A stretch of 64,000 bases of DNA, taken from NCBI GenBank assembly GCA_024372625.1, contig CP099605.1:1-64000 (forward strand). Reading direction: 5' to 3'. The notes below the pieces were generated by a model. The model was not told the DNA's origin and searched no databases. It worked only from the letters and a program-made list of their open reading frames with translations. Position numbers and translations under genes: made by a program. Positions 1 through 55,197 of the stretch are shown one piece after another. Every line of letters begins with the position of its first letter. Position 1 is the first letter of the stretch. The stretch comes from Comamonadaceae bacterium OTU4NAUVB1 (GTDB lineage Bacteria; Pseudomonadota; Gammaproteobacteria; Burkholderiales; Burkholderiaceae_C).

Positions 1-1380
<1,380 letters not shown>

Positions 1381-1505
1381 ATGCGCCACCACCCCGGGCC
1401 TCGCGCGTGGCGTGTCGCCGCGCACCCCTCGCAGGGGCCCCGGCCGAGCCGGTTTCGCGCCGTGGCGCGGATCGGTTAATCCAAATCAGAGTGAGAGATA
1501 AAGAC

Positions 1506-17475: not shown

Positions 17476-17811
17476 TCAGGCGGGCGCGCCGGCGTCGCGC
17501 AGGCGTGCCAGCGCGGCCTCGACCTCGGTGCTGGCGCGCGGACGCACCAGCCGGTCGATCTCCCGGCCATCACGCAGGAACACCAGGGTCGGCCACAGCT
17601 TGACGTGGAAGGACCGGCCCAGCGGACGCCCGCTGCCGTCCTCGACCTTCAGGTGGGCGACGTCGGCGTGCGGTTCCAGCGCCCGATCCACGTGCGGCCG
17701 CGCGGCCTGACAGAAGCCGCACCAGTTGGTGCCGAAATCCAGCACGGCGAGGCCTCTCAGAGCGTCCACGTCGGCACGGGTCAGGGTTTCGGGGGTGTAG
17801 GGAGTGGTCAT
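17476..17811 (-). CDS. Thioredoxin-family protein
   Basis: A 111-residue cytoplasmic thioredoxin fold with active site WCGFC (two Cys separated by GF rather than the classical GP), preceded by LAVLDFGTNWC and followed by the cis-Pro region LWPTLVFLRDG. The changed dipeptide should alter the redox potential, so it may be a dedicated reductant rather than the housekeeping TrxA. No signal peptide is present. Its promoter must lie in the large origin-like intergenic region to its right. Confidence 0.9.
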   Translation of the reverse strand: MTTPYTPETLTRADVDALRGLAVLDFGTNWCGFCQAARPHVDRALEPHADVAHLKVEDGSGRPLGRSFHVKLWPTLVFLRDGREIDRLVRPRASTEVEAALARLRDAGAPA

Positions 17812-18028
17812 GCCGCAATCGTCGCCTGGAGGCGCTGAAGGCGATCGTCAGGAAAACGCCCCTCTCGATGGAACCTTTGCCGATTTCTGCAAAACCTCGA
17901 CCGCCTCCGGAAGTGGCGTCGCCCGCGTATTCAGCACTTCCTTTGCCGAACGGCCCGTCAGGGCCCGGCTGCATTTGCTCGGCCGAAGCTTCCGCTTCGT
18001 TCCTATCTCTTGTTTCTCTTATTTAAGT

Positions 18029-18040
18029 TAGTAGTAGTAG
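18029..18040 (+). other. DnaA-trio repeat (TAG x4)
   Basis: Four contiguous TAG triplets, preceded by AT-rich sequence and followed by a GC-rich spacer of 18 bp and a DnaA box. DnaA-trios (3'-GAT-5' units) guide DnaA onto single strands during origin melting. Polarity relative to the box is the expected one. Confidence 0.6.
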
Positions 18041-18058
18041 GTAAGGGTCGCGCTCGGC

Positions 18059-18067
18059 TGTGGATAT
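18059..18067 (-). other. DnaA box (one mismatch)
   Basis: Reads ATATCCACA on the minus strand, one base from the TTATCCACA consensus. It is the box nearest the TAG trios and would anchor the unwinding DnaA filament. Confidence 0.6.
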
Positions 18068-18176
18068 GCCGTTTTTCTGCTTTCGTGGCAACGACTTGCG
18101 TCGTGTCGTGGCCTGTGCGCAGCCGTGTCTTTGCGTGATTCTGCAAAAGGGATAACTTTGAAGACCGTCGCCGCGC

Positions 18177-18185
18177 TGTGGACAA
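18177..18185 (-). other. DnaA box (one mismatch)
   Basis: Reads TTGTCCACA on the minus strand, fitting the relaxed TTWTNCACA pattern except at position 3; one base from consensus. Same orientation as the box at 18059. Confidence 0.6.
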
Positions 18186-18353
18186 GTCATCGGTTATGCC
18201 GAAAACGTCCCCAGACTTGTCCTTTGACAGGGCCCTCGGAATCTGGGAAAGGAGCCCCGCACGAAAAGTCATGCACTGCTCAAATTTAAGGCAGGGCGTT
18301 GTTTCTCTTTCAAAAACAAGGACTTGGCCGACCTCTACAGGGAAGTGCCGGTG

Positions 18354-18362
18354 TTATCCACA
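18354..18362 (+). other. DnaA box (perfect consensus)
   Basis: TTATCCACA on the plus strand, the exact consensus, 7 bp before a perfect 16-bp palindrome (CCCCACGATCGTGGGG). Opposite orientation to the two other boxes. Confidence 0.75.
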
Positions 18363-18448
18363 GAGTTGCCCCACGATCGTGGGGAGAAGCGCGGGTCCCG
18401 CGCGCGGCGAAAACCGAGCCGTCGCGATCGACCTCCAAAAAATTTTTT

Positions 18449-18468
18449 GACGCCTGCGGCGTCGTTTT
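18449..18468 (+). terminator. Terminator-like hairpin ahead of the TerB-like gene
   Basis: GACGCC-TGC-GGCGTC stem followed by GTTTTTC, preceded by an A-run and a T-run. It ends 19 bp before the ATG at 18487, so it cannot end that gene. It should end a transcript coming out of the origin region, or act as an attenuator for the TerB-like gene. Confidence 0.65.
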
Positions 18469-18486
18469 TCTTCAAAAGGCCTCTTC

Positions 18487-19521
18487 ATGAACGCATCCGA
18501 AAACCAAGCCGTCCTCACCCTCAGTCTGCTGGCGGCCTTTGCAGACAATGACAAGCACGAGCGCGAACGCGCGGAGATCAAGCGCATCGCCGAAGGCCTG
18601 TCCCAGGCGGAAGGCGTCCACCTGCCGGCGCTCTACCAGAACGTGTTGATGAAGCGGGTGGCGCTGCCCGACGTGGTGGCGGCGCTTCCCGATCGCGGCA
18701 TGCGCCAACTGGCCTACGAAATGGCGGTCTGCGTGTGCGACGCCGATGGCACGCTGTCGCCGGCCGAACGCCGTTTCCTGGACGAAACCCGGCACGCGCT
18801 GGGACTGGACGCTTCCGAGTCGGGCCGGTTCTCGGCCGAGGCGGAAGCGCTTGCCGAAGTGCCGCTGGTGTCGCCGGGCGACGCGTCGACCGGCGTGGCG
18901 GGCATGACCGCCGCCAGCGCCGTCACCGCCGCTGGCGCCGCCACGGCGACGGCCGCCCTCGCGACCGCCTCGACCGGTCCCGTCGCCGCGGCGACGTCGA
19001 GCGTCGATGCCGCCGAACTCGACCAGGCCATCCTCAACGCCGCCATCCTCAACGGCGCGCTGGAACTGCTGCCCGAGACGCTGTCGACGATGGCCATCAT
19101 TCCGCTGCAGATGAAGCTCGTCTACCGGATCGGCAAGGCGCACGGTTTCGAACTCGACAGCGGGCACATCAAGGATTTCATCGCGACCGTGGGCGTCGGC
19201 CTGACCTCGCAGTACCTCGAACAGGCCGGGCGCAAGCTGCTGGGCGGGCTGCTGGGCAAGGTCGGAGGCGGGTTGCTGGGCGGCGTGGGCCGCCAGGCCG
19301 TCAGCTCGGGCATGAGCTTCGCCACGACCTATGCGCTGGGCCACGTCGCCAAGCGCTACTACGCCGGCGGCCGGACGCTGTCGACCCAGATGCTCAAGGA
19401 CGCCTATGCCGGCGTGATGAAGGAAGGGCAGGGCCTGCAGACCCGCTACCTGCCCGCCATCCAGGAGAAGGCACGCACCATCAACCCCTCGCAGATCCTG
19501 TCGATGGTGCGCGGGGCCTGA
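18487..19521 (+). CDS. TerB-like / DUF697-like protein
   Basis: A 344-residue protein with two parts. Residues 1-130 look like a TerB-type helical domain (LLAAFADNDKHERERAEIK, CDADGTLSPAERRFLDE), which in other proteins binds metal through acidic residues. Residues 170-344 resemble the DUF697 (YcjF C-terminal) membrane-associated module, with a Gly-rich hydrophobic stretch LGGLLGKVGGGLLGGVG near 255-275. An Ala-rich linker joins them. The ATG at 18487 follows AAAAGG. It lies right of the candidate oriC, and its role is unknown; envelope or stress function is a guess from family members. Confidence 0.75.
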   Translation: MNASENQAVLTLSLLAAFADNDKHERERAEIKRIAEGLSQAEGVHLPALYQNVLMKRVALPDVVAALPDRGMRQLAYEMAVCVCDADGTLSPAERRFLDETRHALGLDASESGRFSAEAEALAEVPLVSPGDASTGVAGMTAASAVTAAGAATATAALATASTGPVAAATSSVDAAELDQAILNAAILNGALELLPETLSTMAIIPLQMKLVYRIGKAHGFELDSGHIKDFIATVGVGLTSQYLEQAGRKLLGGLLGKVGGGLLGGVGRQAVSSGMSFATTYALGHVAKRYYAGGRTLSTQMLKDAYAGVMKEGQGLQTRYLPAIQEKARTINPSQILSMVRGA

Positions 19522-32742: not shown

Positions 32743-32864
32743 CGCGCCGGTCGCAGCGGGAGGTGGCCCCACGGGCCACGCCTCCGAGGTCGCACGCTTA
32801 AAATTGCGACCCCGTCTCCCACGGAGACTCCACCGCCGCGCACGCGATAGTGCGCTCCCTCCAC

Positions 32865-34810
<1,946 letters not shown>

Positions 34811-34814
<4 letters not shown>

Positions 34815-35503
34815 GCCAGGATGCCGCGTTGCGAGAGGGCGCCAAGGCGCTCGGCGTCGAATTGACCGAGCGCCAATGCGAGCGGCTGCTGGCCTACGGC
34901 GCGTTGATCCTGAAGTGGAACAAGGTCTACAACCTGACGGCCCTCCGCGACCCGTCCCTGGTGCTCACGCACCATCTGCTCGACAGCCTCTCGGTCATCG
35001 AGCCCTTGCGGCGCGAGAAGCCGGCAGCGACGCGAACGGCCCATGGTGCTGGTGCGGGGCCGGGGCAGGGCGATGCCGGGCGGATGCGGCTGATCGACGT
35101 CGGCGCCGGTGCCGGACTGCCGGGCGTCGTGATCGCCATCCTGCGCGACGACATCCACGTCACGTGCGTGGATGCCGTGGCCAAGAAGGCCGCGTTCGTG
35201 CAGCAGGTGGCGGTCGAGCTGGGGTTGCCCAACCTGCGTGGTCTGCACGCACGTGTGGAGACGCTCTCGGGCGCCTACGATGTCGTCAGTTGTCGGGCCT
35301 TCGCGTCGCTGGTCGACTTCTGCGACGGCTCCCGCCAGCTGCTCGCGACAACGGGCGTATGGATGGCCATGAAGGGCAAGATGCCGGACGAGGAAATGGC
35401 GGCGCTGTCCGCCGATGTCGATGTGTTTCACGTGGAACCATTGCGTGTACCGGGTCTCGATGCCGAACGCTGCCTGGTGTGGGCGCGCGCCAGGACGGCC
35501 TGA
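34811..35503 (+). CDS. rsmG: 16S rRNA (guanine527-N7)-methyltransferase RsmG (GidB)
   Basis: SAM-dependent methyltransferase that makes m7G527 in 16S rRNA; its loss gives low-level streptomycin resistance. The 230-residue protein shows [14 protein letters not shown], the SAM-binding [15 protein letters not shown] and the [10 protein letters not shown] region. A Gly/Ala-rich insertion of about 20 residues ([18 protein letters not shown]) precedes the SAM motif, lengthening it over the usual 207-215. The start overlaps the mnmG stop (ATGA). A second parS-like site lies near its 3' end. Confidence 0.96.
35424..35439. other. parS-like site (two mismatches)
   Basis: TGTTTCACGTGGAACC inside rsmG, matching the parS consensus at 14 of 16 positions, with the central TTCACGTG core intact. 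Confidence 0.75.
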
Positions 35504-36414: not shown

Positions 36415-37389
36415 ATGGCCAAGATTTTTTGCATCGCCAACCAGAAGGGCGGTGTCGGCAAGACCACCACCACCGTGAACCTGGCCGCCGGACTCGCCAA
36501 GGTGGGTCAGCGCGTGCTGATGATCGACCTCGATCCGCAGGGCAACGCCACCATGGGTTCGGGTGTCGACAAGCGCCAGCTGGAGCTCTCCGTGTACGAC
36601 GTCCTGCTGGAGTCCGCCTCCGTGGCCGAGGCGCGCGTCCATTCGGAGCGTTGCGGCTACGACGTGCTGGGCGCCAACCGCGAACTCGCGGGCGCCGAGG
36701 TCGAGATGGTCGCGCTCGACCGGCGCGAGAAGCGCCTGCGCACCGCCCTGGCCGCCGTCGGCGCCGAGTACGACTTCATCCTCATCGACTGCCCGCCCAG
36801 TCTCAACCTGCTCACGCTCAACGGCCTGTGCGCCGCGCACGGCGTCATCGTGCCGATGCAGTGCGAGTACTTCGCGCTGGAAGGCCTGACCGACCTGGTC
36901 AACACCATCAAGCAGGTGCACGCCAACCTCAACAAGAACCTGCAGATCGTGAACCTGGTGCGCGTCATGTTCGATCCGCGCATCACGCTCCAGCAGCAGG
37001 TCAGCGAGCAGCTCAAGTCGCACTTCGGCGACAAGGTGTTCGACACCGTCATCCCGCGCAACGTCCGGCTGGCCGAGGCGCCGAGCTACGGCCTGCCGGG
37101 CGTGGTGTTCGACCCCTCGGCAAGGGGCAGCCAGGCCTTCGTCGCCTTGGCGAGCGAGCTGGTCGAGAAGATGCCGCCGGCGAGCATGTTCGCGCCGCTG
37201 TCCGCCGCGTCGTCGCCGGCCGCCAGGGCCAGGCAGGCGGGCAAGGGCGAGAAGCTTGAAAAGGGCGAGAAGACCGAGCAGGGGGACGAGGGCGGCAAGG
37301 GCGACAAGGGCGGCAAGGCCCAGGACGCCGCCGGACCCGGCGCGGGCAATGCCGCCAGACCGGCGACATCGACACGCGAATCGGCATGA
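36415..37389 (+). CDS. parA: Chromosome partitioning ATPase ParA (Soj) with extended C-terminus
   Basis: Walker-type ATPase that moves ParB-parS complexes and segregates origins. Residues 1-260 are a normal Soj: deviant Walker A KGGVGKTTTTVNL (about 11-23), LMIDLDPQGNAT, FILIDCPPSLNLL and the DNA-binding SEQLKSHFGDKVFDTVIPRN region. Residues 265-324 form an unusual tail rich in Lys, Gly, Glu and Ala (KGEKLEKGEKTEQGDEGGKG), about 60 residues longer than typical. The stop overlaps the next start (ATGA). Confidence 0.96.
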   Translation: MAKIFCIANQKGGVGKTTTTVNLAAGLAKVGQRVLMIDLDPQGNATMGSGVDKRQLELSVYDVLLESASVAEARVHSERCGYDVLGANRELAGAEVEMVALDRREKRLRTALAAVGAEYDFILIDCPPSLNLLTLNGLCAAHGVIVPMQCEYFALEGLTDLVNTIKQVHANLNKNLQIVNLVRVMFDPRITLQQQVSEQLKSHFGDKVFDTVIPRNVRLAEAPSYGLPGVVFDPSARGSQAFVALASELVEKMPPASMFAPLSAASSPAARARQAGKGEKLEKGEKTEQGDEGGKGDKGGKAQDAAGPGAGNAARPATSTRESA

Positions 37390-45734: not shown

Positions 45735-47018
45735 ATGAACGACATCAGCAATTCGGTGCCCATCGCCATCATCGGGCTGGGTTACGTCGGCCTTCCACTC
45801 GCGGTGGAATTCGGCAAGAAACGGCAGGTCATCGGTTTCGACATCCATGCCAGGCGGATTTCCGAATTGCAGGCCGGCCACGACCGCACCCTGGAAACCA
45901 CGGCCGGGGAATTGAAGAACGCGACGCGCCTGTCCTTCACCTCGCATGCCGACGACCTGCGCGATTGCTCGGTCTTCATCGTCACGGTGCCCACGCCCAT
46001 CGACAACGCCAACCGGCCCGACCTGACGCCGCTGATCAAGGCCAGCGAGACCGTCGGCAAGGTGATACACGACGGCGCCATCGTGATCTTCGAATCGACG
46101 GTGTATCCGGGCGCCACGGAGGAAGTGTGCGTGCCCCTGCTCGAAAAGTTCAGCGGCAAGAAATTCAACGTCGATTTCTTCTGCGGCTACAGCCCGGAGC
46201 GCATCAACCCCGGCGACAAGGAACACCGGCTGCCGAGCATCAAGAAGGTGACCAGCGGCAGCACCCCCGAAGTGGCCGAGACCGTGGACCGGCTCTATCG
46301 CGAAATCATCACCGCCGGCACGCACAAGGCCAGCAGCATCAAGGTGGCCGAGGCCGCCAAGGTGATCGAGAACACGCAGCGTGACGTCAATATCGCCCTG
46401 ATGAACGAACTCAGCCTGATCTTCCACCGGCTGGGCATCGACACCCTGGAGGTGCTGCAGGCGGCGGGCACCAAGTGGAACTTCCTGCCGTTCCGTCCCG
46501 GCCTGGTGGGCGGGCACTGCATCGGCGTGGACCCGTACTACCTGACGCACAAGGCCGTCGAAGTGGGCTACCACCCCGAGGTCATCCTGGCAGGGCGCCG
46601 CATCAACGACAACATGGCGAGCCACGTGGCCGACCAGGTCGTGAAGCTGATGCTGCGCAAGGGCCTGCCCGTGCTGGGCAGCAAGGTGCTGGTGCTGGGG
46701 CTGACGTTCAAGGAGAACTGCCCCGACGTGCGCAACACCAAGGTCGTGGACATCGTGAAGACGCTCCAGGGCTACAACACCCGGGTCGATGTCTACGACC
46801 CGTGGATCAGCGTCGAGGACGCGGAACACGAGTACGGCCTGAAATGCCTGCACGAAGCGCCGGCCGCCGGCACCTACGACGCGGTGATCCTGGCCGTGAG
46901 CCATCACCAGTTCGTGACGTTGGGCGAGGCGGGGGTCAAGGCCTTCGGCAAGCCGGGCGCGGTGCTGTTCGACGTGAAGAGCCTGTTCCCGCTCGGCGCC
47001 GCCGACGGACGCCTTTGA
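45735..47018 (+). CDS. tviB: UDP-N-acetylglucosamine 6-dehydrogenase (TviB/WbpO type)
   Basis: Oxidises UDP-GlcNAc or UDP-GalNAc to the uronic acid with two NAD+. The 427-residue protein has the NAD-binding [10 protein letters not shown] at 13-22, [27 protein letters not shown], the central [20 protein letters not shown], and catalytic Cys262 in [11 protein letters not shown]. It is followed 29 bp later by the C4-epimerase gene, the same pair that makes UDP-GalNAcA for Vi antigen and some O-antigens. GC-rich and native-looking. Confidence 0.93.
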
Positions 47019-47047
47019 ACCATGACCCTTGCACCGGACCGCTTCCA

Positions 47048-48100
47048 ATGACCACGGCCTACGAACAACTGAAGGCGCGGCTGCCGAACGAGCCGCGCAC
47101 CTGGCTGGTGACCGGCGTCGCCGGCTTCATCGGCAGCAACCTGCTGGAGACCCTGCTGCTGCTCGACCAGCGCGTGGTGGGGCTGGACAACTTCGCGACG
47201 GGCTATCAGCGCAACCTCGACGAGGTGCAGGGCTTGGTCACGCCGCAGCAATGGAGCCGCTTTCATTTCATCGAAGGCGACATCTGCAACCTCGACGACT
47301 GCCGCCGCGCTTGCGAGGGCGTGGAATACGTCTTGCACCAGGCCGCATTGGGATCGGTTCCCCGAAGCCTGGCGAATCCGATCGCCACCAACGACACCAA
47401 CATCGGCGGTTTCCTGAACATGCTTGTGGCCGCGCGCGACGCGAAGGTCACCAGTTTCACGTACGCGGCCAGCAGCAGCACCTACGGCGACCACCCTGCG
47501 TTGCCGAAGGTGGAGGACGTCATCGGCAAACCGCTGAGTCCGTATGCGGTGACCAAATACGTCAACGAGCTTTATGCGGATGTGTTCGCACGCTGCTACG
47601 ACTTTAAGACCATTGGACTGCGTTATTTCAACGTATTCGGTCCTAGGCAAAACCCAAGCGGAGCTTATGCAGCGGTGATTCCTAAGTGGATCTCAAGCCT
47701 GATGCAAGGCGAACAGGTGTACATCAATGGCGATGGTGAGACCAGTCGCGACTTCTGCTTTATACAAAATGCTGTGCAAGCCAATCTTCTGGCGGCAACC
47801 ACAAAAGAGACTGGTGCTAAAAATCAAATCTACAACGTCGCTGTAAGCGGCCGCACCACTTTAAATTCCTTGTTTTCACTCATTTGCAAGAACTTGAATA
47901 ATTGCAATTTCAGAATTGATGCTCAGCCAATATACAGAGATTTCAGAGCAGGAGATGTTCGACATAGTCATGCGGCGATAGAGAAAGCATCTAGCCTTTT
48001 AGGCTATCAACCTAGTCATACTATTGAAAGTGGCATTCCACACGCCATGATGTGGTACATCAATCACGCAAATGATCCAACAAAATCATTAAAAGCTTAG
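47048..48100 (+). CDS. tviC: UDP-N-acetylhexosamine 4-epimerase (TviC/WbpP type), mosaic gene
   Basis: A 350-residue SDR epimerase interconverting GlcNAc and GalNAc forms of UDP sugars. Family signs are [24 protein letters not shown], the catalytic Tyr/Lys in [11 protein letters not shown], and [19 protein letters not shown]. The protein is continuous and intact, but base composition changes sharply at about 47600: codons before it are GC-rich, and codons after it prefer A or T in the third position, like the following genes. The junction lies within a strongly conserved stretch, which suits homologous recombination. Confidence 0.93.
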
Positions 48101-48167
48101 ATTTGAAAAAACTTAAAAACTAAAAATGCTTAATTAATAAAGCAAATAATTAATGCCAAACTAAAAA

Positions 48168-49613
48168 GTGTTTAAAACTTCGATTGCTTATTTTGCTATT
48201 CGTGCGCTTAATGGTGTTTTAGGATTGGCGACAGTATTTATACTTACTCGTCTGATGTCGGCCGCGCAATATGGCGCTTATGCGTTGAGCATGGCAACAA
48301 TTGGACTCTGCGCCTCAATATTCTATCAATGGATCGCCGTCACCATAGCGCGGTTTTATTCGATATACGCAAAAGATCCAGCAGTATTGATAGCTGAAGG
48401 AAACAAACTTTTCTTCAGAGTTTCGCTATGTGTGTTTTTTGCGATAGCAGTGTATATTTCTTTTGCAGAGATGGAAACGCAAAAGATATGGCTCACAGTG
48501 GCCATCGCAGTAAGCGTCGTTGCTACTGGTTTGCATAATTTGGGGCTACAAATTGCAAATGCGAGCGGACGGCCGGCAAATTATGGTTTGCTGAGTATCA
48601 CGCGAGGTGCATTCACTCTGTGCGCTGCCGTAGGACTAGTTCAATTAGGTTACGGCAGCACAGGGGCAGTTTTCGGTTTTGCAGTCGGAGGAGTCCTGTC
48701 TGTTGCGATTTTCAGGGTCAAGCGTCCAAAATTCACAGAAAAAAGCAATAAGACTCTTAGAAAAGAGATGATGGTCTATGGACTTCCTCTGACCTTGACA
48801 TATGTCTCGACAATGATTCTGGATGTATCTGACAGATTCATGATTGGATGGTGGTTGGGAACACCAGCAGTTGCCGGATACGCTGCAGCTTATGACTTAA
48901 CTCAGCAAGTCATAGGAGCCATTATGAATGTGCTTTTTCTAGCTAGTTACCCACGGATAACAGCTGCATGGGAAACTGGCGGTGTGTCAGCTGCCCGTGA
49001 TGCAATGAGCCCATTATCACGAGCTATCTTGCTTGCCTCGCCACTACTAAGCGGAATTTTTATAGGAGGTGCAACTGAAATCTCAAATGCTGCTTTTGGA
49101 AAAGCTATAGCTTCAGAAGCAGCGAAAGTCATCCCGTGGACAGCATTTGCGATCACAGTTGCATGCTTCAAAAGCTATTACCTAGATGTTGCTTTCCAAC
49201 TTGAAAAAGCAACAAAAACACAGCTTTATATTACTGCTTGCATGGCCATTTTAAATATATTATTAAATTTATTTCTAATAAACCGTTATGGGATATTGGG
49301 AGCCGCAATTTCTACAGCAGCAGCTTTTACATTCGGCGCAATGTTGAGTTGGCAATGTGGAAGAAAGCTGAATTTGTATTCAAGTCGAATGTTGGATCTT
49401 GCAAAACTACTCATAATTTTCTTTTTTATATTGATTGCCACAAGTTTTCTGCCAACAACAAGCTTTAGCAACGTTTTTAACGCTGCAATAAGTGTGACAG
49501 TTGGGGTTGTCTCTTACACTATTGGAATATTAATTTTTAATCCGATGAACATAAGATCTGCGGCGATTAGGCAAGCTTTAGTGCTGATGCGAAACAAAAT
49601 TGCGAAGCACTGA
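48168..49613 (+). CDS. wzx: Polysaccharide repeat-unit flippase, Wzx type
   Basis: A 481-residue polytopic membrane protein with about 12-14 hydrophobic helices of the MATE/MOP superfamily. The start FAIRALNGVLGLATVFILTR and the repeated short loops (LMSAAQYGAYALSM) are typical of O-antigen or capsule flippases, which move lipid-linked repeat units across the inner membrane. The start is GTG at 48168 with no strong ribosome-binding site; nearby ATG codons run into stops. It lies in the AT-rich island just before wzy. Confidence 0.88.
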   Translation: MFKTSIAYFAIRALNGVLGLATVFILTRLMSAAQYGAYALSMATIGLCASIFYQWIAVTIARFYSIYAKDPAVLIAEGNKLFFRVSLCVFFAIAVYISFAEMETQKIWLTVAIAVSVVATGLHNLGLQIANASGRPANYGLLSITRGAFTLCAAVGLVQLGYGSTGAVFGFAVGGVLSVAIFRVKRPKFTEKSNKTLRKEMMVYGLPLTLTYVSTMILDVSDRFMIGWWLGTPAVAGYAAAYDLTQQVIGAIMNVLFLASYPRITAAWETGGVSAARDAMSPLSRAILLASPLLSGIFIGGATEISNAAFGKAIASEAAKVIPWTAFAITVACFKSYYLDVAFQLEKATKTQLYITACMAILNILLNLFLINRYGILGAAISTAAAFTFGAMLSWQCGRKLNLYSSRMLDLAKLLIIFFFILIATSFLPTTSFSNVFNAAISVTVGVVSYTIGILIFNPMNIRSAAIRQALVLMRNKIAKH

Positions 49614-49692
49614 GGCTATTTTTGTTTAATCCAAGTGATGAGATTTAAAAATTAAAGATAGAACTTTTATAATCGTTGCCGCACTTGCGGGG

Positions 49693-50865
49693 TTGTTTAT
49701 TCCTACGTCGAACGAAGGAGAGATATCTAATTTTCTTTCCATACTGAACTTTCTGATACCTGCATTTTTGCTATCACTCACTTTTAGATTTAATGGGTGG
49801 CAGTTGCGTCGCTTGGGCTATGTGATTTTGCTAATGGCAATGATGTTGCTATTCACAGTAACTTCGCCTTTTTCTTATATTGCATGGGGTGGCATGGCGC
49901 CTTATATCTTAGCTTCAGCCATCCTACTCACGGATTTCAAAACTTCTCAATACATATCAGATATCAAAATAGACAAAAGTTTAATAAGAACATTGTTTCT
50001 TATAAACATAGTAATATTTTTGCTTGGATTTGGAATTTTGACTGAACAATCTTTGTTGGTTGAAGTTATCCAGCGCAACTACCAATCTCTGAATGAAGAA
50101 CTCTACGAGCAAATGATAGTTTGGAACTCCAAGCCTGTAACTGTCTTTGGTTCGCATTCCACTGCTGCATTGGCATATTTCTGTTTGTTTGCTATCAATT
50201 TCAAGCTCTTTCGCAATGTTAATCTATCAAGCTTTTGGAGAGGAATATATCTCCTCTTTGCAGCAGGATTTCTAATATTAAATTGGCTGTTGATATCAAA
50301 TACATCAGTAGCAATGACGGCATTTGTAGTCCTTTTCTTTTCAATGGCTTTGATAAGAAAACTTTCGAAAAATACCAAAGTTATTCTTTTTGTAATCGGC
50401 CTGGCATCTATTCTTGTGATTATTGCTGATGTTGGTTTTTTCTATTCCATGTTTGGCGGTTCTGATGCCAATGGTTTTCTTGGCAGATATTCCTCAGGAG
50501 GACGGCTGCAAAGCACGTACAACTACTTAATTGATAACAATTTCATGCCAATAGGGTTTTCCTATTCGGCTGGAATTGGTTTGGGAGACAATTTCATCGC
50601 AGAATACATAATAAAAGCTTCGTTTTTTGGGTATTTTATTATATTGTTTCTTCTATGGACTTGGTTTAGACGTCATTTAAGTCAATACAGAGCGTTGGCT
50701 TTTTTTGTATTTATCGTGCTTGCAGACTTTGCGTACCCTTTGCTTGTATACAGCCGAATCGCCGCTGTTATCCCGTTTTATGTATTGATGTGGCAAAGAA
50801 TAGATTCGGGTGTTTTTCTTGTTCGAGAATCTGATAATCAGATAGAGCATGAAAACGAAAAATAA
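49693..50865 (+). CDS. wzy: Polysaccharide polymerase, Wzy type, with doubtful 5' end
   Basis: A 390-residue membrane protein with about ten hydrophobic segments and a larger loop around residues 120-150, the layout of Wzy O-antigen polymerases. The frame has no ATG: the first usable start is TTG at 49693, which truncates the first helix. An ATG at 49638 lies one base out of frame; removing one A from the run of five at 49647-49651 would restore MRFKIKDRTFII and a complete first helix. This is either a base-call or assembly error, or a slippage-prone or inactivated gene. The 3' end overlaps the next gene by 17 bp. Confidence 0.75.
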   Translation: MFIPTSNEGEISNFLSILNFLIPAFLLSLTFRFNGWQLRRLGYVILLMAMMLLFTVTSPFSYIAWGGMAPYILASAILLTDFKTSQYISDIKIDKSLIRTLFLINIVIFLLGFGILTEQSLLVEVIQRNYQSLNEELYEQMIVWNSKPVTVFGSHSTAALAYFCLFAINFKLFRNVNLSSFWRGIYLLFAAGFLILNWLLISNTSVAMTAFVVLFFSMALIRKLSKNTKVILFVIGLASILVIIADVGFFYSMFGGSDANGFLGRYSSGGRLQSTYNYLIDNNFMPIGFSYSAGIGLGDNFIAEYIIKASFFGYFIILFLLWTWFRRHLSQYRALAFFVFIVLADFAYPLLVYSRIAAVIPFYVLMWQRIDSGVFLVRESDNQIEHENEK

Positions 50866-51877
50866 AAAAATCAAAATATTGGGAATCACGCAGGGCGCTG
50901 ATGTTCCTAGCACCAGATTCAGATGGTCTCAATATGGCGAAGATTTAATTAGCGAAAATTTCGAAGTCTCTGAAGCCGCAAGCAAGTGCGGCGCTTATCC
51001 GCCTGCATCACATGGTTGGCGTCCTGTCTGGTTTGGTGCTGCATGCGTAGAAAATCTCGGCCGTGTTTTTCGCTCAAATAAATTTGATTTGACTTTTCTG
51101 CAAAGAAATTTGATATCAACATTGTTTAGCTTGGAAAGCATGATAAAAAAACCATTTGTTTTTGACGTGGATGATGCTATCTTTTTAGGTGCTCGAGGGA
51201 AAAATGCAAACCGCATAGCGCGGATTTCATCGTTGACCATATGCGGCAACAACTTTCTGGCAAATCATTTCGCTGATTATGGATCTGTAGTTGTTTTGCC
51301 TACGGCTGTCGACGCATCACGTTTTGTTCCGCTTGATCATATAAGTGGATTTCAAAAAGTTATAGGTTGGTCTGGATCTTCATCGGGGTTTAAATACTTG
51401 TATGAAATCGAACCGGCAATTTCCAAAATTCTCAAAAAGTATCCAGATAGCATTCTTAAAATAGTTTCTGATAAAGCGCCATTATTCAAAAGTATATCTA
51501 GTAGTAAGGTTGTTTATGAGCCCTGGAGTGTAGAAAGAGAAGTTGCTGTGCTTCAGGAATTTTCAGTGGGAATAATGCCGCTTGAAAATAGCTTATGGGC
51601 CCGCGGGAAATGTAGTTTCAAAATGTTGACATATATGTCAGTCGGAATTCCTGTTGTAGTTTCTCCAGTCGGAATGAACTCAGAGGTCCTTGCTCAAGCC
51701 CATTGCGGATTTGGCCCTAGAAATCATGATGAATGGGTAGATTCAATTTCCTCCTTACTAGAAAATCCTACATTGTCTAAATCAATGGGGGCATGCGGAC
51801 GAAAATTAATAGAAACTAATTATTCCAAGAAAGTTATTGGACCAAAACTATCTTTAATTCTTAAGTCGCAGATCTGA
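50849..51877 (+). CDS. Glycosyltransferase (GT4-like)
   Basis: A 342-residue cytoplasmic transferase of GT-B fold. The C-terminal donor half shows VIGWSGSSSGFKYL, YEPWSVEREVAVLQEFSVGIMPL and KMLTYMSVGIPVVVSPVGMN, the family-1/4 pattern. The N-terminal acceptor half (ILGITQGADVPSTRFRWSQY) is unlike the neighbouring transferases. It adds a sugar to the lipid-linked repeat unit; donor and linkage are unknown. It overlaps wzy by 17 bp, and codon use is AT-rich. Confidence 0.85.
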   Translation: MKTKNKKIKILGITQGADVPSTRFRWSQYGEDLISENFEVSEAASKCGAYPPASHGWRPVWFGAACVENLGRVFRSNKFDLTFLQRNLISTLFSLESMIKKPFVFDVDDAIFLGARGKNANRIARISSLTICGNNFLANHFADYGSVVVLPTAVDASRFVPLDHISGFQKVIGWSGSSSGFKYLYEIEPAISKILKKYPDSILKIVSDKAPLFKSISSSKVVYEPWSVEREVAVLQEFSVGIMPLENSLWARGKCSFKMLTYMSVGIPVVVSPVGMNSEVLAQAHCGFGPRNHDEWVDSISSLLENPTLSKSMGACGRKLIETNYSKKVIGPKLSLILKSQI

Positions 51878-51943
51878 TGTTTATCTAGATGCTATTATTT
51901 GAAGAAAAACATAGTTTTTGATTTTGGAAAAGCTTAATTTCTA

Positions 51944-53104
<1,161 letters not shown>

Positions 53105-53220
53105 AAGCTGGGATCGCTCAGTGCAATGACGCACGAGTTTCGATCACTCACACATTCATCGACCAACAACAAGATTTCCAGCGCGGCGATGTTCCGCTGG
53201 AGCAAACAGGATCACTGGAA

Positions 53221-55197
53221 ATGTGTGGACTTGCAGGTTTTTTGGGGGGGCAATGGCCCGGCGACACCGCGTCGCCGCGTCTGAACGCCATGACAGATGC
53301 GATCTCGCGGCGCGGGCCGGATGCCGACGGGCAATGGCTTGATGCTGACGCCGTTGTCGGTCTCGGGCACCGGCGTCTCTCGATCGTCGATCTGTCCGAC
53401 GCAGGCGCGCAACCAATGTTGTCCCCCAAGGGCCGGTATGTCATCGCATTCAATGGCGAGATCTACAACCACACGGATCTGCGCGACCAGTTGGACGCGC
53501 AAGATCGCGCTCCGGCATGGAGAGGGCATTCGGATACTGAAACGCTGCTCGCCGGTTTCGATGCTTGGGGGATCCGCGCCACGATCGAACGCGCCATCGG
53601 CATGTTCGCCTTCGCCGTATGGGATCGGCAGTCGCGCACGCTCACGCTTGCGCGCGATCGCATGGGCGAAAAACCACTCTATTACGGCTGGCAAGGCGCG
53701 GGTCGCGCAGCAGTCTTTCTTTTCGGCTCGGAATTGAAGGCTCTGCGTTCTCATCCGGCATTTGGTGCGCCGATCGATCGCGATGCGCTTTGCCTGTTCA
53801 TGCGACACAACAACGTAGGCGGCGCGCACTCCATCTACGCAGGCATCCGCAAGTTGCTGCCGGGCAATCTGCTGACCGTGTCGCAGGCCGCACCAGAGCC
53901 CATTCTTCAAAGCTATTGGTCGAACGTGACAGCGGCGCAACAAGGCGTGGCGCATCGGTTCGAGGGTGGCCCAAAGGAGGCGGTCGATGCATTGGAGACC
54001 CTGCTCAAGGACGCGGTTCGCCGGCAGATGATGGCTGACGTGCCGCTCGGCGCGTTCCTCTCGGGAGGCATCGATTCCTCAACCATCGTCGCATTGATGC
54101 AGACGCAGACCTCTCGTCCGGTCAAGACCTTCTCGATCGGCTTTCACGAGGCGGCATACAACGAAGCAGAGCATGCCAAGGCGGTCGCTGGACATCTGGG
54201 CACTGACCATACGGAGATGTATGTGTCGCCAGATCAGGCGTTGGCCGTCATCCCGGACTTGCCGAAGCTGTATTGCGAGCCTTTCGCCGATTCGTCTCAG
54301 ATTCCGACGTTCCTGGTCAGCCAGCTTGCGCGTCGCCACGTGACCGTGTCGCTCTCAGGAGATGCTGGGGACGAACTTTTCTGTGGCTACAACCGCTATG
54401 TATTGACTTCGAACTTGTGGAGCAAGCTGTCAGCAGTGCCGTTGCCCTTGCGACGGGGAGTGGCGCGCCTACTGACGACTTTTTCGCCCGAGCACCTGAA
54501 TCGTCTGTCCGCCAGCACGTCGCTCTCACGTCGTTGGACCAACGTGGGGGACAAACTGCACAAGGGCGCCAACGTCATGACTGCCGAGTCGGCAGCCCAT
54601 CTCTACAGGAGCATGGTCTCGCAATGGTCGCATCCTGAGGATGTGGTGCTTGGCGGCCGCGAGCCGGACACTCCTCTCAATGCGCCGGCATCCTCCCTGT
54701 CGGGGCTGACCGATGTCGAACGCATGATGGCCCTCGACCTCCAGACTTATCTGCCCGACGACATCCTGACCAAGGTCGATCGGGCCGCAATGGGCGTGAG
54801 CCTGGAGACGCGTGTCCCTTTCCTCGATCACCGCGTCGTGGAGTTCGCATGGCAACTGCCCATGCAATACAAGCTGCAGCGGGAAGGCAAGCGTTGCACG
54901 ACCAAGTGGGCGCTCAGGGAGGTACTGTTTCGCCATGTGCCCAAGGCATTGATCGAGCGGCCCAAGATGGGCTTCGGCGTGCCCATCGACAGCTGGCTGC
55001 GTGGTCCGTTGCGGGCCTGGGCGGAAGACCTCTTGAGCGAGTCGCGCCTGAAGCGCGAGGGATTTTTCAATGCCGCCGTGATCCGGCAGAAGTGGACGGA
55101 ACATCTGAGCGGTCAACGCAATTGGCAGCATCAGCTCTGGTGCGTGTTGATGTTCCAGGGTTGGCTGGACGAGCACATGAAACCGGTGCGCTCGTGA
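53221..55197 (+). CDS. asnB: Glutamine-hydrolysing asparagine synthetase-like amidotransferase
   Basis: A 658-residue class II amidotransferase. Cys2 of MCGLAGF is the glutaminase nucleophile, with AFNGEIYNH and RDRMGEKPLYYG in that domain. The synthetase half has the PP-loop LSGGIDSSTI and SLSGDAGDELFCGYNRY. The start at 53221 is fixed by Cys2; the frame upstream is a shadow. In polysaccharide clusters such enzymes amidate uronic acids (as WbpS is proposed to do in the P. aeruginosa O6 cluster), which fits the UDP-GalNAcA genes here. Free asparagine synthesis cannot be excluded. Confidence 0.9.
   Translation: MCGLAGFLGGQWPGDTASPRLNAMTDAISRRGPDADGQWLDADAVVGLGHRRLSIVDLSDAGAQPMLSPKGRYVIAFNGEIYNHTDLRDQLDAQDRAPAWRGHSDTETLLAGFDAWGIRATIERAIGMFAFAVWDRQSRTLTLARDRMGEKPLYYGWQGAGRAAVFLFGSELKALRSHPAFGAPIDRDALCLFMRHNNVGGAHSIYAGIRKLLPGNLLTVSQAAPEPILQSYWSNVTAAQQGVAHRFEGGPKEAVDALETLLKDAVRRQMMADVPLGAFLSGGIDSSTIVALMQTQTSRPVKTFSIGFHEAAYNEAEHAKAVAGHLGTDHTEMYVSPDQALAVIPDLPKLYCEPFADSSQIPTFLVSQLARRHVTVSLSGDAGDELFCGYNRYVLTSNLWSKLSAVPLPLRRGVARLLTTFSPEHLNRLSASTSLSRRWTNVGDKLHKGANVMTAESAAHLYRSMVSQWSHPEDVVLGGREPDTPLNAPASSLSGLTDVERMMALDLQTYLPDDILTKVDRAAMGVSLETRVPFLDHRVVEFAWQLPMQYKLQREGKRCTTKWALREVLFRHVPKALIERPKMGFGVPIDSWLRGPLRAWAEDLLSESRLKREGFFNAAVIRQKWTEHLSGQRNWQHQLWCVLMFQGWLDEHMKPVRS

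Follow-up and report, generated by a model that had tools for sequence, protein, structure and literature searches.

The 64,000-nucleotide stretch examined here (the window; contig CP099605.1 of Comamonadaceae bacterium OTU4NAUVB1, positions 1 to 64,000) begins with dnaA and contains a gene-free gap of 675 bp at 17812-18486, in which four TAG triplets stand between an AT-rich tract and a DnaA box, with further boxes beyond, and which we regard as the probable seat of a displaced chromosomal replication origin (oriC). The features of the gap, together with the two genes that border it, are the following:

18003..18235, plus strand: candidate oriC core, a 233-nt non-coding element (model match 18004-18232) kept across the family
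18006..18028, plus strand: AT-rich pyrimidine tract, presumed melting region, a conserved block preceding the TAGs in the core alignment
18029..18040, plus strand: four DnaA-trios (TAG x4, TAGTAGTAGTAG), near-invariant in 22 aligned cores
18041..18058, plus strand: GC-rich spacer of 18 bases
18059..18067, minus strand: trio-adjacent DnaA box ATATCCACA (TGTGGATAT on the plus strand), one mismatch; CTGTGGA is invariant in the core alignment
18177..18185, minus strand: DnaA box TTGTCCACA, one mismatch; it reads TTATCCACA in many relatives with the core at the TerB seat
18314..18326, plus strand: predicted integration host factor (IHF)-like site, one mismatch to WATCAANNNNTTR
18354..18362, plus strand: perfect DnaA box TTATCCACA
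18380..18388, minus strand: weak box-like TTCTCCCCA, two mismatches, inside a conserved TGTGGGGAGAA block
17476..17811, minus strand: thioredoxin-like gene, left border of the gap
18487..19521, plus strand: gene for a TerB/DUF533-like protein, right border; it marks the TerB seat of the core in many Variovorax

The original prediction for this DNA had described four TAGs next to an AT-rich patch, a GC-rich spacer and a DnaA box in the polarity of Bacillus subtilis, and this arrangement was recovered at 18006-18067, as were its two further boxes, that at 18177-18185 with one mismatch and that at 18354-18362 perfect. The AT content is 76% over 18006-18030 and 28% over the spacer (18041-18058). 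The run TAGTAGTAGTAG is beyond chance in the window (expected 0.00, found in 0 of 100 shuffles with one mismatch allowed), and of the only four boxes with at most one mismatch in the whole 64 kb, three are in the gap, within 304 bp of one another. Perfect copies of TTATCCACA number eight in the 4.66-Mb genome, including one in the gap and one in the rpmH-dnaA gap. The IHF-like site was scored against what we take to be the IHF consensus, which occurs exactly and at a matching offset (± one base) in 9 of the 13 relatives' loci scanned.

DnaA-trio modules next to a DnaA box have been predicted in most bacterial origins, and the available part of that study gives a search rule for the basal unwinding system (BUS) of at least three trios with a central A, a box with at most two mismatches in the right polarity and a spacer of 0-16 bases (PMC8287927). 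The TAG x4 at 18029-18040 agrees with the trio part of this rule, and ATATCCACA at 18059-18067 (minus strand), with one mismatch and the correct polarity, with the box part; the spacer, at 18 bases, exceeds the limit by two. The label of DnaA-trio module therefore holds for trios and box and not for the spacer, which is shorter, at 14, in some other genera of the family (G073, G157, G401). The module appears to resemble the BUS in its working, outside the published limit by 2 bases, with melting by DnaA as its putative function. The general make-up of an oriC, a box cluster with an AT-rich melting region, is present as three boxes in 304 bp beside the 76% AT tract.

The core and its seats relative to dnaA

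Relatives were compared in a same-genus set, which we read as Variovorax, and a family set (f1), which we read as Comamonadaceae, both from the titles of TerB loci and from taxonomy. Of 128 loci found by scanning named genomes for the TerB-like protein, 80 were retained; Variovorax accounted for the top 19 rows and for most of the remainder, and f1 was taken as Comamonadaceae on this account. Of these 80 named loci, six of which included less than 1.1 kb of upstream DNA, 33 have three or more TAGs and then TGTGGA in the 3 kb before the gene. Within the same-genus set, a DNA search with the copy of G004 recovered the core in 24 of 25 genomes, the other one (G003) giving no match to the core and no match to dnaA either. 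Besides the genome of the window, 12 others of the same-genus set have the block of TAG x4 and box upstream of their TerB gene, and in most of these loci the distal boxes are also kept at matching spacing. Six same-genus genomes have no trio and box within ~1 kb upstream of TerB, and all six carry a copy directly downstream of dnaA; in total, a reversed dnaA-side copy was found in nine (G002, G005, G008, G013, G015, G019, G021, G023, G024). Many of the invariant columns in the 22-core alignment fall on the trio and the boxes and others in further conserved blocks. The TAG run, boxes and flanking blocks are likewise kept in an alignment of 13 copies (nine dnaA-seat genomes) and four others, which left out the dnaA-side copy of G019 and in which one copy has TGG in place of the first TAG.

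A loose pattern, TAGTAGN{8,30}TGTGGA, proved unspecific (103 of 120 family genomes, with the reversed control scoring more often), and family counts were therefore based on a sequence-only model, R1, built from 22 cores and applied at E ≤ 1e-4. R1 matches the window with E 5.5e-48 (the window sequence itself being in the model; runner-up in the window E 0.67), and it matches 111 of the 120 family genomes, three of which (G000, the window's own genome, G374 and G318) contributed rows to it. The model was checked by its E-values and by the orientation of 47 out of 47 copies, without a shuffled control.

In the same 120 genomes dnaA was located above the cut-off in 117. Seats were compared in 110 of the 111 matched genomes, those with a listed match (G492 lies outside). 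The core is directly downstream of dnaA in 47 of the 110, at 10-152 bp beyond where the dnaA match stops, and is reversed in every one of the 47. A homologue thus stands at a recognised origin seat, the dnaA-dnaN spacer being the classical place of oriC; dnaN itself was read in G008, G014 and the window, and elsewhere is assumed from the usual gene order. In 39 further genomes the core is elsewhere on the contig of dnaA, with the nearest copy 4.9-459 kb away in 38 and 2.41 Mb away along the contig, possibly circular, in G477. Core and dnaA are on separate contigs in the remaining 24. The comparison with related genomes called for at the outset thus placed the core both at dnaA-side and at displaced seats, and the premise that origins usually lie beside dnaA is true of less than half of the family genomes (47/110). 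Flanking genes of displaced cores vary among 11 loci compared by eye, with some neighbours in common.

Clusters of TAGs with a box, possibly related to this core through weak local matches, are likewise remote from dnaA in families of the order outside f1, for example in G143 (50 kb), G338 (94 kb), G263 (157 kb), G293 (269 kb) and G080 (346 kb). A stricter TAG pattern occurs in 27 of 399 genomes at order level, some apparently by chance. Dense DnaA-box arrays, often as close opposed pairs, stand beside TAG runs at loci L104-L108 of another family (f8), remote from dnaA in the cases that have both on a single contig, and are candidate origins of that family.

The surroundings of the gap in the window bear on its reading through the following features:

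1..1380, plus strand: dnaA (TIGR00362)
1381..1505, plus strand: dnaA-dnaN spacer, which has no core; presumably the ancestral seat
32850..34814, plus strand: mnmG (gidA)
34301..34316, no strand given: perfect parS, 16.3 kb from the core
34811-35503: rsmG, after mnmG
35424 and 35537: parS-like sites with two mismatches and one mismatch, respectively
36415-37389: ParA-type ATPase gene, near parS

The contig of the window (C3 of G000, 3,289,598 bp) opens with the start codon of dnaA and closes shortly before the same gene, rpmH being 0.25 kb from the contig end, which suggests a circular chromosome with its numbering set at dnaA. Neither a TAG run nor a box nor an R1 match is found in its dnaA-dnaN spacer (1381-1505). 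In G014, a genome with the core at the TerB seat, only a purine-rich stretch resembling the AT-rich core edge of G008 precedes dnaN, and this may be a ribosome-binding region only. The distance between parS and core is 14.5-20.3 kb in seven TerB-seat relatives (G004, G009, G011, G014, G016, G017, G020), and parS lies ~39-46 kb from dnaA in G005 and G008, where the sole core found is beside dnaA. The gene at 36415-37389 would correspond to the ParA-type ATPase of the parAB pair named in the original prediction.

Judged from sequence, the gap 17812-18486 very probably holds the core of the chromosome's oriC at a displaced seat, 18 kb from dnaA. We favour this reading because in 47 of 110 family genomes a homologue directly follows dnaA, every time in reverse, because trio and boxes are kept at both seats, and because parS is nearby and the own dnaA-dnaN spacer has no core. 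Anatomy, conservation, seats and empty spacer are direct observations, and they lend support to the proposal of an oriC some 18 kb from dnaA with a DnaA-trio module.

DnaA binding, melting and firing are what we infer from this anatomy. DnaA would bind the boxes at 18059, 18177 and 18354, perhaps assisted by IHF bending at 18314, and a DnaA filament from the box at 18059 would be led over the GC-rich spacer to the TAGs of a single strand and would open the AT-rich tract 18006-18028, where DnaB would be loaded. Forks would depart bidirectionally, with parS 16 kb away serving segregation. As to the ancestral seat and the order of events, which we also infer, the former was likely the dnaA-dnaN spacer, in reversed orientation, and this lineage would have lost the spacer copy and retained that beside the TerB-like gene.

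Two cores 30-34 kb apart are present in 5 of the 25 same-genus genomes (G002, G019, G021, G023, G024), three of them with the far copy upstream of dnaA and two with it downstream. Across the family, at least two core matches occur in 2 of the 47 dnaA-side genomes versus 35 of the 63 others (Fisher p = 3e-9, kinship ignored). Trees of 35 cores separate seven Variovorax dnaA-side copies from the TerB and far copies (65/95 support), and the same split appears in 97% of bootstrap trees when rows of other genera are set aside. Recent twinning of cores within a genome was rejected for G023 (p = 7e-5) and G021 (p = 0.009) and is still compatible with G002 (p = 0.07). The hypothesis favoured by these sequences is that a second copy arose long ago and that one seat was lost later. 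The inner branches of the core tree are mostly weak (8 of 32 starred), the core of the window has no well-supported position, and an alternative tree grouping spacer and far copies without the TerB copies is not rejected (p = 0.23); given the weak branches and this unrejected tree, duplication and loss is kept as a hypothesis. It is a possibility that we put forward tentatively, and with more doubt than belief, that the oriC of the family moves by duplication and differential loss, a second core being seeded tens of kb off, both being retained for long as two potentially firing or cooperating cores, and one finally being lost. Displaced origins are already known; in these relatives one recognisable core is found beside dnaA in some genera, away from it in others and at two places in certain species, which opens intermediates of origin relocation to study and addresses the question of how an essential and unique element can be relocated without killing the cell.

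Among the same-genus genomes we also observed five core matches, two of them partial, within 3 kb upstream of a TerB-like gene (G001:C36:129628-132458). Weaker partial core matches (G007:C154 and C196; G009:C14; G016:C6 and C45:43541; G017:C3) are possibly relics or the origins of other replicons.

Replication polarity and alternative origins

For the own chromosome GC skew was sampled in 20 spaced 20-kb pieces as well as in the window and at the contig end; for two relatives it was taken over the 200 kb around dnaA, including four-fold sites. FtsK orienting polar sequences (KOPS, GGGNAGGG, GGG[ACT]AGGG) are polar at chromosome scale in the own genome, with 18 on the plus and 6 on the minus strand in ten samples at 100-1585 kb, 5 plus and 25 minus in eight samples at 1915-3070 kb, and two mixed samples (4 plus, 4 minus at 1750 kb; 3 plus, 2 minus at 3200 kb), and at this scale they put the origin broadly near dnaA. 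G476 is the sole Comamonadaceae genome sampled in which core (395-399 kb) and dnaA (134 kb) are well separated, by 260 kb. Its KOPS are minus at 5 of 6 sites over 118-218 kb, on both sides of dnaA, and plus at 6 of 6 sites over 383-411 kb, the switch being nearer the core than dnaA; its GC skew rises from -0.023 to +0.030 across the core, and the two values flanking dnaA are negative (-0.014, -0.057). This genome favours the core.

Several observations weigh against a firing core. GC skew was flat in the samples of the own chromosome and in the two relatives, with no usable asymmetry, and the skew inversion suggested as a check was hence uninformative. KOPS speak locally against the module, in that their polarity in Variovorax switches neither at the module nor at dnaA: in the dnaA-core interval of eight Variovorax 18 of 22 are in the right-arm orientation, where a firing core predicts the left-arm one. 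Upstream of dnaA, 18 of 21 are right-arm in five Variovorax, which counts against dnaA too, and in the own genome 9 of 9 over 67 kb. These Variovorax sites are homologous and hence not independent, and the stretch of G004 ended at its switch. In G476, KOPS are already plus 11 kb left of the core, one minus site lies at 478 kb, and GC skew is positive at 60 kb (+0.035) and at 290 kb (+0.017) too; in G080, KOPS change polarity between the candidate core (86-179 kb off) and dnaA (>160 kb off). If the core fires, dnaA, dnaN and gyrB would in addition be head-on to the fork. KOPS look coarse near origins, because switches are offset from the candidate core in several genomes.

A rival reading, which we consider unlikely, puts the origin in the rpmH-dnaA gap, in which case the module of the window would be an origin-like site of the datA or DARS kind (names for DnaA-titrating and DnaA-regenerating sites, respectively). 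That gap is the classical position, from which dnaA, dnaN and gyrB run co-directionally with the fork, and of 23 same-genus loci 19 show a box pair 50 bp apart (± one base) upstream of dnaA, while four begin at dnaA with no upstream DNA included. The own genome carries this pair at its contig end, one box perfect and one with one mismatch; the gap there has no TAG run, and in the comparison proposed by the original prediction its boxes are not denser than those of the module. The module, moreover, has an unwinding anatomy that is needless for a titration site, and its homologue lies directly downstream of dnaA in the 47 relatives, and no KOPS switch marks dnaA.

We give still less credence to a true origin ~70 kb upstream of dnaA, with the module as a relic or auxiliary site. 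It would account for the local KOPS switches found 67-74 kb upstream of dnaA in G000 (C3:3221.7-3222.9 kb) and G004 (C2 1615.1-1617.0 kb), and it recalls the GC-skew switch ~90 kb from dnaA given for Cupriavidus metallidurans in the available part of its genome paper (PMC2864759). No DnaA-box cluster or TAG run was found at the switch in either genome, the regions G000:C3:3219000-3223000 and G004:C2:1615000-1617000 showing a change of polarity without such a cluster. The KOPS-bearing stretch is inverted between the two genomes, so that the switch is not one conserved place, and switches offset from the candidate core occur in other genomes too.

That the element is a transcriptional regulatory element or small RNA and no origin is scarcely credible: it is strongly conserved non-coding DNA upstream of a gene, the single open reading frame (ORF) of 90 codons across it being a mechanical overlap, but its sequence is constant at seats with differing neighbours, many invariant columns lie on trio and boxes, and it has no sign of structured RNA, with no covarying pairs in the core (0 compensatory of 14 predicted pairs) and a best Rfam match over 17600-18600 of 19.6 bits against a cut-off of 42.

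The displaced oriC core thus stands as the preferred reading. It offers an exactly placed candidate origin in Variovorax, a genus in which none was evident from GC skew, and a caution against placing origins by the start of dnaA.

Three other places in the own genome deserve mention. At G000:C3:2928599-2928794 (L020), TTATGCACA and TTATCCACA stand 187 bp apart with no TAG run in the stretch examined, and this may be a site that regulates or titrates DnaA. At G000:C2:45600-46300 (L025 15600-16300), repeats of GGGTTCCTATCGAC/GGGTAGCTATCGAC together with a perfect DnaA box look by eye like an iteron-type plasmid origin, and C2 (290 kb) on that account looks like a secondary replicon. Positions 47000-54000 of the window fall to 38-55% GC in 2-kb windows, versus ~70% for the genome, suggesting a horizontally acquired island.

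Comparison with known origins

The oriC of Escherichia coli lies tens of kb from dnaA, near mnmG, with DnaA boxes and an IHF site, and its melting region consists of three 13-mers and is not known to hold a TAG run. The candidate origin of the window shares with it the distance from dnaA, the boxes, an IHF-like site and the vicinity of mnmG and differs in the melting region, a likeness drawn in layout. Closer in descent, Cupriavidus metallidurans belongs to the same order as the organism of the window. On chromosome 1 of strain CH34 the skew switches ~90 kb from dnaA, after 213 nt with three perfect DnaA boxes; this is a different displaced seat, and the available part of the paper describes neither a trio module nor a comparison of seats among relatives (PMC2864759). 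For oriC1 of Burkholderia cenocepacia J2315, the corresponding part of the report gives DnaA boxes, an IHF site and an AT-rich block, calls the exact place uncertain and shows bidirectional replication by sequencing depth; its KOPS are identical in sequence to those used here, and no portable core is described there (PMC4948915).

A box cluster distant from both dnaA and dnaN, in a lineage whose origins usually adjoin dnaN, is listed for Synechococcus lividus PCC 6715 in the accessible text on DoriC 10.0 (PMC6323995); this is a cyanobacterium with TTTTCCACA boxes, likened here by layout. The origin of Acidovorax citrulli was predicted with OriFinder, according to the part of its genome paper at hand (PMC6595937); searching PMC10721633 by terms gave no passage. 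In titles and the openings of abstracts, with subscription papers mostly outside the search, no description of the portable core or its seats was found.

The nearest likeness is to the BUS of Bacillus subtilis, which in the available text likewise has at least three central-A trios beside a DnaA box, in matching polarity and with a GC-rich spacer; the window differs from it in its spacer (18 versus the limit of 16), in its seat 18 kb from dnaA, and in having one trio-adjacent box with distal boxes and an IHF-like site (PMC8287927). The core is a trio-type origin element of a known sort, with an unusual evolutionary pattern.
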